DNA of 20,013 nt from a virus: positions 1-20,013 of the IMG/VR virus record IMGVR_UViG_3300027736_000304; one strand, 5' to 3'. Positions 1,175-14,094 of the stretch are shown here, piece after piece; positions within the stretch are counted from its first letter, which is position 1, and the number at the start of each line of letters is the position of its first letter. The position numbers were made by a program, and so were the translations under genes. The notes beneath the pieces are model-generated. The model saw only the letters and a list, made by a program, of their open reading frames with translations, made no database searches and was not told where the DNA came from.

Positions 1175-3243
1175 TGGCTACTTTTCAAGTTGATATTGGC
1201 AATGCTACTTATGAGGTAGACGCGGCTGATGAAAAAACTGCTTGGAAATTGGCTAATCAAGCGCATGGCGCACAGCCTTTAGCACCACCGCCTCAACAAG
1301 CACCGCAACAAGCCCCCCAACAAGCACCAGAGCCAAGAGATATTTCTGGTCAAGGCATCTTGATGGGCATAAAAGACCCAATCAATGCTGGCGCACAGTT
1401 CATAGCAAGAAATGTCCCACCCTCAATAAATGAGGCAATTGATGTAATCCCCGCCCAATTACGGGCAAGCAATATCCCAATAGTGTCTAAGTTGGCTAAT
1501 GCTTTGTTGGCAAACCCAAGACCAGAGGCTATTGACAAAGAAATCAGAGATAGAGAAGAAGCCTACCAAGCCCTACGCCAACAAGTAGGGGATGAGGGCT
1601 TTGATGTCAACCGAATGGTAGGCAATATCTTGCCAACTGCCGCAGCTACTTCTGCTTTAATCCCTGCCAAAGCGGTCAGCACAATTCCTCGCTTGTTGGG
1701 AACTTCTGCCATTGTGGGTGGCGCATCAAGCCAATTAACCCCTGCGGTCACTATGGGAGAACAAGCCTCCTACCCTGCGTTTAAACAAGGTCAAGCCGTT
1801 GCAGGCACAGTATTAGGCCCTGTCGGGGCTACTGTTGGACGCATGGGTGGTGGCGTAATTAGGAACATTGGAGAGCGTATTAGCGAATCTACCGCTATGG
1901 ACGCGGCTAAATTGAAATTGGCAGATTTGTTGTCAAGAAGTGGTCGAGGAAATTACTTCCAAGGTGGCGGTGGTGACCCATTGGCACAAGTTGAGGCTAA
2001 ATTGATGACGCAAGGTCCAGAGGCAACGATTGCAGGGGCTGGAGGACAAACCTCTAAGAGTTATTTGGACTTGATGGCTACTTTGCCTGGTCAAGCGAAG
2101 GACTTGGTAGAGCAGTTCATTCGCAACCAACAAGCCACCAGAGCAAAGCGGTTAGTAACCGCGGCAGATGAGGCTTTAGGTACTGCTGGCAAGACTTACA
2201 CAGGAACACTAAGCGGATTGATTGCTGAAAAACAAACAGTCTCCGCGCCTTTATACAAGCAATTAGAGGGTGTTTCTGTACGGGTTGATGATGACCTATC
2301 CAAACTAATCCAAGCGTCTAAAACGGCTCATGGTGGTGCTGAATTGTTGGCAGAACTTAAAAGCACAACGCCAATTGATGTGTCCAAAATCAAGGTGGGT
2401 GACGATATTCCCTTTGATACCTTGGACAAGGTTAAACAGGCTTTGTTTGATTTGGCAGAAAATTCTAAGGGTGAGTTTGGCAAGCCAACTGCACTCAGTA
2501 ATGCTTACAACGACTTACGGGTTCGTCTGACAAACAAGATGGACGATATGAGTCCTAAAGACAAAGCGTTGAAGAGCGACACAAACCCATTGGGTAGCAT
2601 CTACAAAGAGGCTAGGGATGCGTTTGCAGGCCCGTCTCAGTTAGAGGGCGCGGTTAAGGCTGGTCGCAATGCCATGAAAGAGGACGCAATCAAGGTTGCA
2701 GATGCTACTCAGGGCATGAGTAAAAGTGAGATTGAGGCTTACAGAATCGGTGTTTTACAGTCTTTGAAAGACAAAGTGGGTACTGAAGGCGGTCAAACTT
2801 CCCTTTTGAAAATGTGGAAAGAGCCTGCTACAAGCGACAAACTAAAAGAGATATTTGGCAATGATTACCGCAAATTCGCGTCTGATGTGGCGCGTGAGGC
2901 TCGATTAAAAGAGATTGAAAGCGTAGGCAGAGGGTCACAGACTGCAGCAAGATTATCTGGAATCAATGAAGATGCTTTGAGAAATACAGCCCAAGCGGGT
3001 CAAGCGGTAAGTTCAGCATCTCAAGGTAATCCACTTCCCGCAATTGGAACTCTTACAAAACTTCTTAGCCAAGCAAGTACCCCAGAAACAACACGCAACG
3101 AAATTGCCAAACTTTTACTTCAAAAGGGCAATGTTGCTCAAAATACAGTTCGTGAATTGCCCGAGCGAGTTCGTCAATACAATGAACAGTTAGCAAGACA
3201 AGCAGCTATGGCTAACGCACTAGCACAACAACCTCAGAGGTAA
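1174..3243 (+). CDS. large virion or internal/ejection-like protein (689 aa)
   Basis: Unrecognised at family level. Residues 1-32 form a small domain (ATFQVDIGNATYEVDAAD then TAWKLANQAH) of a kind seen at the N-terminus of phage virion proteins. A QQAP repeat linker follows at residues 41-55. Residues 150-230 are rich in small and hydrophobic residues (NILPTAAATSALIPAK; GTVLGPVGATVG) and could associate with membrane. Residues 280-689 are highly helical with charged repeats and a Gln-rich tail. Size, helicity and position just before the tail fibre fit an internal or ejection protein delivered with the DNA; this is inference. A GGAGG Shine-Dalgarno at 1161-1165 lies 8 bases before the ATG, inside the end of the upstream gene. 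Confidence 0.6.
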   Translation: MATFQVDIGNATYEVDAADEKTAWKLANQAHGAQPLAPPPQQAPQQAPQQAPEPRDISGQGILMGIKDPINAGAQFIARNVPPSINEAIDVIPAQLRASNIPIVSKLANALLANPRPEAIDKEIRDREEAYQALRQQVGDEGFDVNRMVGNILPTAAATSALIPAKAVSTIPRLLGTSAIVGGASSQLTPAVTMGEQASYPAFKQGQAVAGTVLGPVGATVGRMGGGVIRNIGERISESTAMDAAKLKLADLLSRSGRGNYFQGGGGDPLAQVEAKLMTQGPEATIAGAGGQTSKSYLDLMATLPGQAKDLVEQFIRNQQATRAKRLVTAADEALGTAGKTYTGTLSGLIAEKQTVSAPLYKQLEGVSVRVDDDLSKLIQASKTAHGGAELLAELKSTTPIDVSKIKVGDDIPFDTLDKVKQALFDLAENSKGEFGKPTALSNAYNDLRVRLTNKMDDMSPKDKALKSDTNPLGSIYKEARDAFAGPSQLEGAVKAGRNAMKEDAIKVADATQGMSKSEIEAYRIGVLQSLKDKVGTEGGQTSLLKMWKEPATSDKLKEIFGNDYRKFASDVAREARLKEIESVGRGSQTAARLSGINEDALRNTAQAGQAVSSASQGNPLPAIGTLTKLLSQASTPETTRNEIAKLLLQKGNVAQNTVRELPERVRQYNEQLARQAAMANALAQQPQR
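1294..1329 (+). repeat. three tandem 12-bp QQAP repeats
   Basis: Three in-frame copies of CAACAAGCACCG, with the variants CAACAAGCCCCC and CAACAAGCACCA, encode QQAPQQAPQQAP. This tract could expand or contract by slippage. It links the N-terminal domain to the rest of the 689-residue protein. Confidence 0.85.
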
Positions 3244-11127: not shown

Positions 11128-11156
11128 ATTATAAGTTAGATTAAGTCTTGTGTGTA
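11128..11156 (-). promoter_or_regulatory. leftward early promoter (sigma70-like)
   Basis: Read leftward, TACACA (11151-11156, 4 of 6 to consensus) and a perfect TATAAT (11128-11133) are spaced by exactly 17 bases. Transcription would start near 11121 and run through a 40-base leader with AAGGAG to the ATG at 11081. It is the only strong candidate for the 4-kb leftward operon. Confidence 0.75.
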
Positions 11157-11169
11157 GGGACTTTCCCTA
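11155..11169. promoter_or_regulatory. operator-like palindrome over the leftward -35
   Basis: TAGGGA-CTT-TCCCTA is a perfect 6+6 inverted repeat with a 3-base centre. Its left arm overlaps the -35 box of the leftward promoter (11151-11156). A dimeric repressor bound here would block leftward transcription. The small Cro-like protein encoded 36 bases to the right is the obvious candidate; binding is inference. Confidence 0.6.
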
Positions 11170-11177
11170 ATACGGAT

Positions 11178-11189
11178 TAAGTTAACTTA
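11178..11189. promoter_or_regulatory. second operator-like palindrome and GATTAAGT repeat
   Basis: TAAGTTAACTTA is a perfect 12-base palindrome just before the Cro-like gene. GATTAAGT occurs twice (11139-11146 and 11175-11182). TAAGTTA also occurs at 11132-11138, next to the leftward -10. Repeated half-sites on both sides of the first palindrome fit a small switch region. Confidence 0.5.
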
Positions 11190-11204
11190 TGTAAAATATC
11201 GGGC

Positions 11205-11357
11205 ATGACAAAAGAACATCTTATCCGTCTGGCAGGCTCACAGCGTGATCTTGCTGACATTCTTGGTATTAGCCAAGCTGCGGTTTCGCAATGGAAGACT
11301 GTTCCCAAGGCAAGGATGTGGCAGTTGTTAGTTCTTAAACCTGAATGGTTTAAATAG
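11205..11357 (+). CDS. Cro-like/YdaS-type HTH repressor (50 aa)
   Basis: A compact helix-turn-helix protein: MTKEHLIRLAG, then SQRDLADILGISQAAVSQWK (residues 12-31), then VPKARMWQL and a short tail. SQxxLA-LGISQAAVSQW followed by VPxxR is the signature of Cro/YdaS-type repressors. At 50 residues it is near the minimum for the fold. It is the first rightward gene facing the leftward operon, with operator-like palindromes in between, so it probably controls the early switch. No Shine-Dalgarno is visible before the ATG. A TAAAAT box at 11192-11197 would place a transcript start at or near the ATG, suggesting a leaderless message. Confidence 0.8.
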   Translation: MTKEHLIRLAGSQRDLADILGISQAAVSQWKTVPKARMWQLLVLKPEWFK

Positions 11358-11376
11358 TTTTAAAAGTATGTATAAT
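11349..11376 (+). promoter_or_regulatory. rightward promoter for the structured RNA
   Basis: TTTAAA (11349-11354, 4 of 6) and a perfect TATAAT (11371-11376) are spaced by 16 bases. The start would be near 11382. The -35 lies in the last codons of the Cro-like gene. The first possible hairpin begins at 11383, exactly where the transcript should start. Confidence 0.65.
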
Positions 11377-11381
11377 CCAAA

Positions 11382-11540
11382 GCGTCTAGAGTGGCATTTA
11401 GACGAGAACGCGAATCTTGAACCCCGTAAGGTACTGTGTGGTCTTGTACGACAGCAGGCGAGATTTTTGATTCGCGTCAATCGTCTTGCTGTTGCTCTCG
11501 CCAAGAGCCAAGACCACAGAGCATCTTGCGGGGTTTTTGC
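11382..11540 (+). ncRNA. putative structured, terminated phage RNA of about 160 nt
   Basis: No convincing gene lies here, but complementary segments are dense. H1 pairs 11383-11390 with 11397-11404 (8 pairs, one G-U, 6-base loop). P2 pairs 11422-11446 with 11509-11533 (25 positions, two mismatches, two G-U) and runs into TTTTT. P3 inside it pairs 11457-11463 with 11496-11502 (7 perfect pairs). A competing stem P4 pairs 11401-11405 with 11481-11485 and 11408-11416 with 11469-11477 (14 pairs) and cannot coexist with H1 and P3, nor easily with P2. With the promoter at 11349-11376 this is a complete transcription unit. It could be a free regulatory RNA or an attenuator leader for the replication genes. 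It matches no RNA family I can name. Confidence 0.65.
11422..11538 (+). terminator. intrinsic terminator formed by the long P2 stem
   Basis: The 5' arm starts CCCCGTAAGG and the 3' arm ends CTTGCGGGG directly followed by TTTTT (11534-11538), the form of a rho-independent terminator. The stem encloses 62 bases, far more than a usual terminator loop, which is why the element looks like a folded RNA rather than a simple stop. Confidence 0.6.
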
Positions 11541-11756
11541 TTTTGGCGATCTAGATCGTCAGGGCGCGTTAGCAAATGGTCTGCATGGACTGAACCCAAG
11601 AAACACCGCACTCATTTCACCCGTGAGCAAAAAGCGACCAGCGTTGATTGAGCGACTGGTAAAGCAGATGGGACATGGTGAAACAACCCATTTGTATAAG
11701 CGAATCAATCCGTCACGCGCACTTGGGGCTTATTGTTTACATATAAGTCTGGAGAA
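11541..11756 (+). other. 216 bases without a convincing gene
   Basis: Frames are open through this stretch (one runs 11368-11802), but none has a ribosome site or a recognisable protein. Visible elements are a perfect 12-base palindrome CGATCTAGATCG (11547-11558), a hairpin in ACCAGCG...CGACTGGT near 11638-11661, and TATAAG boxes at 11695 and 11742 without good -35 partners. It may be an untranslated leader, a replication origin near the replication gene, or a decayed gene. Confidence 0.4.
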
Positions 11757-11782
11757 GGTTAATAGATTGAACTCTATTCACC
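11757..11782 (+). promoter_or_regulatory. leader hairpin before the replication gene
   Basis: GGTTAATAGA and TCTATTCACC pair in 9 of 10 positions around a 6-base TTGAAC loop. The stem ends 4 bases before the GGAG that serves the 8-codon leader frame. It could limit or position ribosome loading. It is not a terminator because no U run follows. Confidence 0.5.
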
Positions 11783-11794
11783 CTTGGAGAAACT

Positions 11795-11821
11795 ATGTCT
11801 AAAAGGAAATGCAATGTTTGA
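11795..11821 (+). CDS. possible 8-residue leader peptide
   Basis: GGAG (11786-11789) is followed after 5 bases by ATG and the short frame MSKRKCNV, stopping at 11819-11821 inside the start of the replication gene (ATG 11814). Its codons contain the AAAAGGAAA that would serve as ribosome site for the next gene. It may couple translation, or it may be fortuitous. Confidence 0.35.
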   Translation: MSKRKCNV

Positions 11822-12170
11822 AGAGTTCTGGAAGGCATGGCCTAGCAATGTTAGAAAGGGCGGTAAAGCCCAATGCAAGGCCAAGTGGGACAAACTAAAA
11901 CTTGACCTACAAGCAGACCAAATAATTAAACACACCGAGTGGATGAAAACCACCGACCAATGGAAAAAGGGCGATGGGGCATTTATCCCTGCGCCTCTGG
12001 TCTATATCAACCAAATGCGGTGGGATGGGGCTGAAGTGCCTGAGATGGTGCTAAATGTAAATCTAAACTTTAGAGACCCTGCCTTAGTGAAGATCGAGGA
12101 AGACACAAAGAATATTTCTCCTATGCCTGTATCTGTTCGTGATTACATCAAACGATTGACTGGAAAATGA
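11814..12170 (+). CDS. replication-initiation-type protein (118 aa, DnaT/replisome-organiser C-terminal-like)
   Basis: The ATG at 11814 gives MFEEFWKAWPSNVRKGGKAQ, the F-xxFWxxxP opening of the C-terminal domain of phage replication proteins related to DnaT and primosome organisers. Upstream in-frame codons (from TTG 11784) give no such match. Ala/Lys-rich helices follow, then the typical ending FIPAPLVYINQMRWDGAEVP (residues 61-80). These proteins help load the host helicase at the phage origin. This copy has only the C-terminal domain and no DNA-binding N-terminal domain. AAAAGGAAA lies about 5 bases before the start. The stop overlaps the methyltransferase start (ATGA). Confidence 0.75.
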   Translation: MFEEFWKAWPSNVRKGGKAQCKAKWDKLKLDLQADQIIKHTEWMKTTDQWKKGDGAFIPAPLVYINQMRWDGAEVPEMVLNVNLNFRDPALVKIEEDTKNISPMPVSVRDYIKRLTGK

Positions 12171-12991
12171 ATGAGTTGGCATTATTTGCGGGCGGTGGCG
12201 GGGGAATCCTTGCAGGACATTTGCTTGGGTGGCGATGTGTTGCAGCCGTTGAAATCGAAGACTACCCACGCAGAGTTTTATTGCAACGGCAGTCTGATGG
12301 ATTCCTACCTCGATTCCCTATCTGGGACGATGTCGCAACATTTGATGGAAGACCTTGGTGCGGAAAAATCGATGTCATCTCAGGGGGATTCCCTTGCCAG
12401 GACATCAGCATTGCAGGCCGAGGCGCAGGGCTTGACGGAGAACAATCCTCAATGTGGTATCACATGGCGCGGGTGGTTAGCGAAGTTCGACCAAGATTCG
12501 TATTCGTGGAAAACAGCCCAATGCTCATTCATCGAGGAATCGGGCGAATCCTTGGTGACCTTTCCTGTCTCGGGTATGACTCGAAATGGACTGTTATGGG
12601 AGCTGCCGATGTTGGCGCACCGCACAAACGCGACAGAACGTGGATTGTGGCGCACTCCAGACACGGGGGGGGGGACATCTGGACTGCTCAAAGAAGGCAA
12701 GAATCATCGAGCGAATGGTCAACCCATACAAATCAGATTGGTCGACCAAGTGAACAATCCAAGACTTTGGCCGACACCAGTACAGAGAATGTACAAAGAC
12801 AAAGGATATCCCTCGGAGTACGGCAGGAACGAGATACCCCTAGCGGCTCAGGTTGGTGGGCCGTTGAACCCCGATTGGGTAGAGTGGCTCATGGGGTGGC
12901 CCATAGGGTGGACAGACTTAAAGCCCTTGGAAACGGACAAGTCCCACTTTGTGCAGCAACCGCCTGGAGACTCTTGAATGACCAAAAGTGA
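12167..12991 (+). CDS. DNA (cytosine-5)-methyltransferase
   Basis: The 274-residue protein has the ordered C5-methyltransferase motifs. Motif I is LALFAGGGGGILAG (4-17). Motif IV is GGFPCQDISIAGRGAGL, with catalytic Cys77. Motif VI is FVFVENSP, with Glu115 and Asn116. Motif VIII is HKRDRTWIVA (153-162). Motif X is RLKALGNGQVP (250-260). The enzyme transfers methyl from S-adenosylmethionine to C5 of cytosine, most likely to protect phage DNA from restriction. The region between VIII and X is short, so the target site cannot be guessed. The start shares ATGA with the replication gene and the stop shares GTGA with an 82-codon frame. A second long frame overlaps nearly the whole gene. Confidence 0.93.
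   Translation: MNELALFAGGGGGILAGHLLGWRCVAAVEIEDYPRRVLLQRQSDGFLPRFPIWDDVATFDGRPWCGKIDVISGGFPCQDISIAGRGAGLDGEQSSMWYHMARVVSEVRPRFVFVENSPMLIHRGIGRILGDLSCLGYDSKWTVMGAADVGAPHKRDRTWIVAHSRHGGGDIWTAQRRQESSSEWSTHTNQIGRPSEQSKTLADTSTENVQRQRISLGVRQERDTPSGSGWWAVEPRLGRVAHGVAHRVDRLKALGNGQVPLCAATAWRLLNDQK
12171..12977 (+). CDS. overlapping-frame protein of a recurrent phage family (268 aa)
   Basis: This frame lies one base forward of the methyltransferase frame, begins 4 bases after it (ATGAATG) and ends 14 bases before it. It directly follows the TGA of the replication gene and directly precedes the ATG of the next small gene. It reads like a real protein: MSWHYLRAVAGESLQ, SYSWKTAQCSFIEESGESL, FPVSGMTRNGLLWELPML, GLWRTPDTGGG and LNPDWVEWLMGWPIGWTDL. 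I recall phage proteins with the same order (MSWLYSRALVEEYS, SWKTAQCSLL, SGMMRNG, LWPTP, LNPEWVEWLMGWPIGWT) annotated separately. A shadow frame open for 268 codons with these family-like blocks is unlikely by chance. Function is unknown. Confidence 0.6.
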   Translation: MSWHYLRAVAGESLQDICLGGDVLQPLKSKTTHAEFYCNGSLMDSYLDSLSGTMSQHLMEDLGAEKSMSSQGDSLARTSALQAEAQGLTENNPQCGITWRGWLAKFDQDSYSWKTAQCSFIEESGESLVTFPVSGMTRNGLLWELPMLAHRTNATERGLWRTPDTGGGTSGLLKEGKNHRANGQPIQIRLVDQVNNPRLWPTPVQRMYKDKGYPSEYGRNEIPLAAQVGGPLNPDWVEWLMGWPIGWTDLKPLETDKSHFVQQPPGDS

Positions 12992-13236: not shown

Positions 13237-13420
13237 AATGCTAAAAATAGCAAACTGCGACATAAACACCATTATTTTTGCTGTTAACGCTTGGGAGATG
13301 GGCGCGGAATGGCAAAAAGAACAATGTGCGTTGCTTTGTGAGGAAGAGCGCATAAACGCCACCCACTACTCAGCCCCTACCCAATCAAATTGGTTGGCAA
13401 AGAAAATACGCGCCACATGA
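13214..13420 (+). CDS. hypothetical early protein (68 aa)
   Basis: ATGA overlaps join it to the 79-residue frame before it and the TGT-like gene after it. It reads MSKDELIEMLKIANCDINTI, then WEMGAEWQKEQCALLCEEER and a basic end (WLAKKIRAT). Small phage proteins with an E(R/Q)CA--CEE helix followed by an Ile-Arg tail are very common in early operons and have no known function. Confidence 0.7.
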   Translation: MSKDELIEMLKIANCDINTIIFAVNAWEMGAEWQKEQCALLCEEERINATHYSAPTQSNWLAKKIRAT

Positions 13421-14094
13421 TTCACTATCACGGCACACCCATATCGCCTATAAAAGCGATTGAAACTATGGGTGGTAAGCATTTTTGTGTGTCTTACGCT
13501 AGACCAGATGACCTTAAACGATGTTTGCGCCTTGGGCAAAGCCTAATGCTTGATAACGGGGCATTTAGTGCCTATACCCGTGGATTACAGTTTGACCGAG
13601 ATGGATTTTACGAGTGGGTAGAGCCTTTGTTAGCCCATCCCCATTGGGCGGTAGTGCCAGATGTGATTGACGGAACTGTGGAACAACAACGGGAAATGGT
13701 CAAAACATGGCCTTTCCGCAAAGAGTTTGGGATTCCAGTTTGGCACTTGGGGCTACCGATTGACTACCTTTTGGAGATTTCAGACCAATGGGGTCGTGTG
13801 TGTTTTGGCTCGGCTGGTGAGTATTGGCAAATTGGAACGACCAAGTGGTGCGGAAGGATGGACGAGGCTTTTAATGCTTTGTCTAAGACTTTTGGCAAGC
13901 TGCCTTGGGTTCATGGACTGAGAATGTTGGGGCAGTCGGCAGGCCCGTGGCCTTTGGCAAGCGCAGACTCCACCAATGTTGCCCTACACCATGCAGAAAA
14001 CGCGCCTTGCGCGGGTTGTATGGCTAAACGCATAGATTCCACTAACCCGCCCCTCAAATGGGAAAACAAACCTTTGCAAGAATCATTTTTATGA
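13417..14094 (+). CDS. TGT/DpdA-like transglycosylase-fold protein (225 aa)
   Basis: The ATG at 13417 (MIHYHGTPISP) shares ATGA with the gene before; a TTG nine codons upstream is not needed. Motifs suggest the tRNA-guanine transglycosylase TIM-barrel superfamily, closest in my reading to DpdA-like phage proteins: SLMLDNGAFSAYTRG with Asp46, WAVVPDVIDG with Asp82 and Asp85, VWHLGLPIDYLLEI, WVHGLRMLG, and a C-terminal CAGC near HH that could bind zinc. The superfamily exchanges guanine for a 7-deazaguanine in tRNA or, for DpdA, in DNA. No preQ0 synthesis gene is seen here, so any base would come from the host or from genes outside the window. Its place after the methyltransferase fits DNA modification. 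Confidence 0.6.
   Translation: MIHYHGTPISPIKAIETMGGKHFCVSYARPDDLKRCLRLGQSLMLDNGAFSAYTRGLQFDRDGFYEWVEPLLAHPHWAVVPDVIDGTVEQQREMVKTWPFRKEFGIPVWHLGLPIDYLLEISDQWGRVCFGSAGEYWQIGTTKWCGRMDEAFNALSKTFGKLPWVHGLRMLGQSAGPWPLASADSTNVALHHAENAPCAGCMAKRIDSTNPPLKWENKPLQESFL

Follow-up and report, generated by a model that had tools for sequence, protein, structure and literature searches.

What occupies the gap between the Cro-like gene and the replication gene of this phage, and does it act on the genes that follow? The window analysed here is the complete IMG/VR virus record IMGVR_UViG_3300027736_000304 (20,013 bases). The gap is flanked by a Cro-like gene (11205-11357, PF14549 match) and by a replication gene, Rep (11814-12170), which matches PHROG replication initiation families; a cytosine methyltransferase gene comes next (12167-12991). 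Shortly after the methyltransferase gene lies a gene (13390-14094) that matches PHROG 887, queuine tRNA-ribosyltransferase. The original prediction placed in the gap an RNA with a promoter, a terminator and two competing folds, and suggested that it might attenuate the replication and modification genes.

A non-coding RNA gene and its fold

It is near certain that positions 11371-11546 of the window are a discrete non-coding RNA gene, RNA1, with a predicted length of about 150-165 nt. Judged from Rfam 15 and from literature searches with many journals outside their coverage, RNA1 is undescribed so far. RNAs of the same type in other phages make up class A (139 unique copies, 136 of them parsable). 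The parts of RNA1 and the element 3' of it are as follows.

11349-11376, + strand: promoter; TTTAAA (11349-11354), 16 nt, TATAAT (11371-11376)
11383-11404, + strand: P1 hairpin, from the fold; 11383-11390 pairs with 11397-11404, loop GUGGCA at 11391-11396
11408-11416, + strand: P4 5' arm, ACGCGAATC; hypervariable key strand, extended by 11401-11405 in the alternative fold
11420-11446, + strand: P2 5' strand, from the fold; compensatory changes, for example U-A to C-G (4) and G-C to A-U (4)
11451-11461, + strand: P3 5' strand; A-U to G-C in 14/61 copies, plus other changes
11464-11468, + strand: U-rich strand between P3 and the P4 3' arm; UUUU invariant in relatives (alignment A1, T99-T102)
11469-11477, + strand: P4 3' arm, GATTCGCGT; inside the P3 loop, extended by 11481-11485 in the alternative fold
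11481-11492, + strand: P3 3' strand, from the fold and covariation
11494-11508, + strand: P5 hairpin, GCUC-UCGCCAA-GAGC; C-G to U-A in 3/61 copies
11509-11546, + strand: P2 3' strand and U-rich end, TTTTTGCTTTTGG; terminator-like, T-run nearly invariant
11547-11735, + strand: RNA2a, second structured non-coding element 3' of RNA1; 3' boundary approximate

The TATAAT promoter that had been proposed is present, preceded by a weak TTTAAA at -35. Across the 136 unique relatives the best match to the -10 box is 6/6 in 92 and 5/6 in 39 (0 and 16 in shuffles), and -35 matches of 5-6 out of 6 occur in 42 (6 in shuffles). P1 is the hairpin expected at the first base of the transcript: it begins at the predicted start, 11383, and the -10 box ends 6-7 nt 5' of it in 134 of the 136. 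The long terminator-like stem corresponds to P2, whose 27 positions (11420-11446 with 11509-11535) end in GGGG-TTTTT, followed by TTTTTGCTTTT.

The predicted fold of RNA1 has an energy of -76 kcal/mol, compared with -47.2 (sd 3.9) for 200 dinucleotide shuffles, none of which equals it (z = -7.4). Searches with Rfam 15 gave no gathering-score match for the window, which places RNA1 outside the known Rfam families; at E<=5, the sole match in the region 11150-11850 was a 16-bit chance match at 11279-11298, outside RNA1. In an alignment of 61 diverse class A copies P1, P2, P3 and P5 were all recovered, and compensatory changes in related phages, whose absence had been set beforehand as the refuting outcome, occur on both sides of 13 of the 41 nested pairs; sampling relied on conserved seeds, and the conservation of P2 is partly produced by the search patterns. 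Non-canonical cells at nested pairs are G.U in 224 cases and A.C in three. Only selection on the + strand RNA would be expected to leave such an asymmetry.

Loop sequences point to further contacts. GGCA in the P1 loop is invariant, while the closing pair changes from A-U to U-A in 6/61 aligned copies. The loop's UGGC is complementary to GCCA of the P5 loop, and this possible kissing pair is invariant in class A; a P1-P5 contact is suggested by the same pairing in the class B RNAs described below, where CUUGGU faces ACCAAG. The U-rich strand at 11464-11468 may be the site where a pseudoknot loop crosses a groove.

A chance open reading frame (11368-11802) spans RNA1. The original view that no protein frame explains the complementarities agrees with the relatives, where no conserved frame is found: the P1-P2 distance falls in all three frames (60/39/37 in class A relatives), as does the P2-P5 distance (54/42/40), and variable sites of RNA1 relatives have no codon-position bias. 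On these grounds a protein-coding gene was rejected. In the main subgroup, 30 of 45 distinct helices go with a total RNA1 length in one phase of three. Such a period of three is not expected under a model of RNA alone and may stem from shared ancestry.

A hypervariable pseudoknot and a competing pairing

A pseudoknot helix of about 10 bp, P4, is formed by the apical loop of P3 and the strand that connects P1 to P2. We found 88 distinct P4 helices among the 136 unique RNAs, with a mean of 10.1 bp (58 helices in an earlier set). P4 reaches at least 8 bp in 94% of them, versus 5.5% after exchanging arms between phages, a shuffle that ignores relatedness. Because of that property of the shuffle, comparisons between RNAs with near-identical cores are the stronger test. 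Among RNAs that share an identical core of 111-115 nt, eight groups have two or more P4 helices, by real replacement in seven of the eight, and one identical core bears four unrelated, well-paired P4 helices. Where cores differ at two positions, each P4 arm of about 10 positions has changed at 4.7 of them on average. The arms lie about 60 nt apart, and both are replaced together while the intervening sequence is unchanged. Watson-Crick pairs fill 1137 of the 1161 P4 cells, and eight are G.U. Taken as comparative sequence evidence, the case for the existence of P4 is exceptionally clear.

The original prediction also described a 14-pair stem that blocks the other folds. The stem is there (11401-11405 and 11408-11416 with 11469-11477 and 11481-11485), but nine of its 14 pairs are the P4 core, which can coexist with P1, P2 and P3 in a pseudoknot. 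The outer five pairs alone compete, with the 3' strands of P1 and P3 and never with P2. At the varying extension pair, between a base of the P1 3' strand and one of the P3 3' strand, 129 relatives have A-T (52), G-C (40) or G-T (37) and none has A-C, a tally used only as an overall R-Y count since the parse of one P3 position is unreliable. The absence of A-C here supports the proposed competition between folds. The A-T, G-C and G-T combinations recur within groups of near-identical cores, and several relatives pair 5' GACGTAG with 3' TACGTT. Calculated energies in the window are -9.4 kcal/mol for P1, -12.6 for the P4 core, -19.6 for the extended P4 and -19.1 for the P3 hairpin. Together there is moderate evidence that the extended P4 is a real alternative pairing. 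It touches neither P2 strand, so it would not be able to switch the terminator directly.

Distribution, neighbours and equivalent RNAs

With a looser pattern, RNA1 was found in at least 120 viral contigs, and the 25-mer of the P2 3' strand (11509-11533) is exact in 101 viral stretches. Two patterns detected no prophage copy of RNA1 in prokaryote genomes representing 84,980 species, one genome per species. No class A RNA1 was present in the plasmid collection, and INPHARED gave chance matches only. Where present, RNA1 is single-copy per genome (11/16 genomes). Of the 139 class A copies, 105 precede Rep and one follows it, 11 stand directly after TerL and two before it, three are near a ParB-like/helicase pair, one is by another gene, and 16 are on short contigs or in other contexts. 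RNA1 thus acts like a mobile gene that brings its own promoter along. A search of 17 related genomes, several of them perhaps incomplete, recovered the positive controls but no integrase, ParA or S24 repressor. A temperate or plasmid-prophage lifestyle was rejected on this basis, and the phages look virulent. A relative of the window, L004, has an int-alpA RNA (RF02996) just above the cut-off at 3122-3188.

Where phages have the same replication gene but lack the RNA of the window, other structured RNAs are present, likewise equipped with this kind of promoter and a T-run. Class B (51 contigs) has a P4 of 6-7 bp that joins a 5' segment, typically CNNNNGA, to a hairpin loop, typically UCNNNNG; 23 distinct pairs occur in 40 unique copies, and 96% have at least 6 bp, versus 26% when shuffled. 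In class C (31 contigs) a variable P1 loop pairs with a downstream segment. Five matched versions were seen (GUGGAAA/UUUCCAC, GUAGAAA/UUUCUAC, GUGAGAA/UUCUCAC, GUCGAAA/UUUCGAC and GUAGGAA/UUCCUAC), and GUGAUAAG, GUGCAAA and GUAACGGU once each. Class C equivalents are located after Rep, for example in MW202484. Promoters of both classes mostly have TTGACA at -35, and neither class was found in annotated phages or plasmids with the sequences used. Classes A, B and C are unrelated in sequence and appear alike in design, each built around a variable pseudoknot. In L071 and L079 the class B promoter spacer holds inverted repeats upstream of TATAAT, such as CGCACAAACAAAGTGTGCG, possibly operators for the Cro-like protein. 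Additional RNA1-like variants at the same locus in L025, L037 and L059 fit classes A-C poorly.

Class A RNA1 is usually followed by a second structured element. For RNA2a, the form in the window, 26 relatives show compensatory changes in 15 of 17 predicted pairs (0 in shuffled columns) and a consensus energy of -9.1 kcal/mol versus 0.0 for shuffled columns. Stops occur in every frame of RNA2a in relatives. A different form, RNA2b, has compensatory changes in 13 of 39 pairs (1.1 in shuffled columns). In 93 contexts the element after class A RNA1 is RNA2b in 56, RNA2a in 28 and another in seven, with two unparsed. RNA2a is also present at 4390-4680 of L002, and in MW202484 the end of the class C RNA1 together with RNA2a is annotated as the hypothetical protein UOF77725.1, probably a misannotation. 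Inspection by eye revealed no promoter between RNA1 and RNA2; RNA1 may accordingly end at a site of processing or at a terminator that leaks. A tRNA suspected by eye within RNA2 of L285 was discarded after ARAGORN found none.

Betaproteobacteria-1 RNA (RF02932, 101 bits) is present in four of 50 related phage contigs (L284, L290, L291 and L292), which gives this RNA family a phage context. In L291 (10563-10680) and L284 it lies directly 3' of a class B RNA1, the same position relative to an RNA1-type RNA that RNA2a holds. It differs from RNA1 in being the neighbouring element, and the window gives no RF02932 match.

Possible functions of RNA1

The concerted variation of P4 implies a role that needs both pairing and identity. 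At slightly less than even chances, the reading we favour is that RNA1 is an independently transcribed, trans-acting phage RNA in which P4 serves as a private self-recognition element under diversifying selection. RNA1 and RNA2 would form a mobile two-RNA module with RNA1 first. P4 would form within RNA1 itself or between copies of the same RNA, two arrangements that are expected to look alike at the sequence level. In the cis form, P3 and P4 would stack (about 21-23 bp) beside P2 (about 25-27 bp); by counting, P3 and P4 together come close to the length of P2 in class A, with a similar agreement in class B, which makes a compact cis fold geometrically possible. The self-recognition role we infer for P4 is that of an address, by which RNA1 would recognise RNA of its own type and ignore that of a different type brought in by a co-infecting phage. 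The helix would be replaced over and over, its two strands remaining complementary, by selection that disfavours cross-recognition or that comes from an antagonist reading P4. This would probably serve competition between phages or host take-over, as opposed to regulation of a neighbouring gene in cis.

Concerted change of matched segments, with the scaffold conserved, is familiar from the c4 RNA of phages P1 and P7, the CI RNA of phage P4, RNAI/RNAII and the repBA pseudoknots of IncB/IncI, where the complementary segments are type-specific and the partner transcript is known. RNA1 shares the concerted change and differs in two respects. No lysogeny genes were found in the 17 related genomes, and a partner was not found: complementarity to P4 arms shows no excess over the arms of other phages, either within 2.5 kb (92 contexts) or across five whole phage genomes, and a trans target of P4 in the phage's own genome was rejected for this reason. 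In the packaging RNA of phi29, too, loop sequences vary between phages while complementarity is kept, and some RNA1 copies stand by a terminase gene. The fold of RNA1 is another one, no phi29-type packaging gene was seen, and most copies are by a replication gene.

Antisense-type superinfection exclusion or copy control is an unlikely alternative. RNA1 or its complement would bind the counterpart element in an incoming phage; phages of the same type would thereby exclude one another, and a rare P4 would be favoured. This would explain paired changes of the arms on a fixed scaffold and suits the 105 of 139 copies just before the replication gene. It also has a precedent in extrachromosomal mycobacterial prophages, for which RNA-based replication and its diversification to avoid incompatibility have been discussed (PMC7157519). 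Against it stand the lack of signs of lysogeny in the 17 related genomes, the terminase-linked copies with no adjacent replication gene, and the failure to find a second copy or complement of P4 nearby, although an opposite-strand transcript of RNA1 itself may be the partner.

A homo-oligomer made of RNA only is quite improbable. In such an assembly, comparable to the GOLLD/ROOL cages and the phi29 pRNA rings, each copy would offer its 5' arm to the P3 loop of its neighbour, and the private loops would keep assemblies unmixed in co-infected cells. The design of P4, a loop facing a single strand, would permit intermolecular pairing, and kissing loops identified by covariation in GOLLD and ROOL turned out to be intermolecular (PMC12286853). 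As described there, these RNAs are like RNA1 in being phage-encoded, structured and pseudoknotted with covarying loop contacts. At about 650-800+ nt they greatly exceed RNA1 in length, they assemble into cages, and they are not known to have private hypervariable helices; RNA1 has no Rfam match. The agreement in length between P3 plus P4 and P2 in classes A and B speaks for a sterically plausible cis fold and against the oligomer.

Alternatively, P4 might be a neutral structural helix that need only pair, its sequence drifting with the help of template switching between the arms. We regard this as rather improbable, too. Pairing is indeed kept while the sequence is free, as the predominance of Watson-Crick cells indicates, but drift would need a local rate far above that of the rest to place wholly different helices on identical cores, and G.U intermediates are nearly absent. 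Their scarcity (8/1,161 cells) also fits template switching at an inverted repeat, a mutational process yielding perfect arms that could account for the hypervariation instead of selection.

Very unlikely is an anti-defence role, in which RNA1 would act as a decoy or as an orphan RNA antitoxin, directed at a host system able to sense or bind structured RNA, with P4 engaged in an arms race with the host factor. A moron-like gene with its own promoter in varying places, and alternative RNA classes at one locus, would be in keeping with it. However, no toxin or defence gene was consistently seen next to RNA1, the proposal comes with no candidate host factor, and an arms race alone does not predict that P4 changes while P2 stays fixed.

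Extremely improbable, and rejected here, is the originally suggested attenuation in cis of the replication and methylase genes: the terminator-like P2, the alternative stem and the usual position upstream of Rep in the same direction would suit such a role, but the alternative stem overlaps P1 and P3 only and leaves P2 intact, the 139 copies hold no fixed place upstream of one gene type, RNA1 adjoins terminase and other genes in other phages, the equivalent RNA comes after Rep in MW202484, L031, L043 and L044, and its behaviour is that of a mobile gene, equipped with a promoter of its own, in varied contexts.

Returning to the self-recognition reading, it is possible, though doubtful, that classes A, B and C form a superfamily of sequence-unrelated phage RNAs, each combining a constant scaffold with a private, fast-changing, self-complementary helix for kin discrimination between phages within one cell. 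If self-recognition holds, a small RNA would act as the identity tag of virulent freshwater phages. Metagenomes would then reveal its specificity code directly, at about 6-10 bp and with at least 88 types in class A, and the system would offer a testable case of competition between phages at the RNA level. Even without that mechanism, RNA1 is a widespread RNA family absent from Rfam, one in which two separated strands are replaced jointly on an unchanged scaffold.
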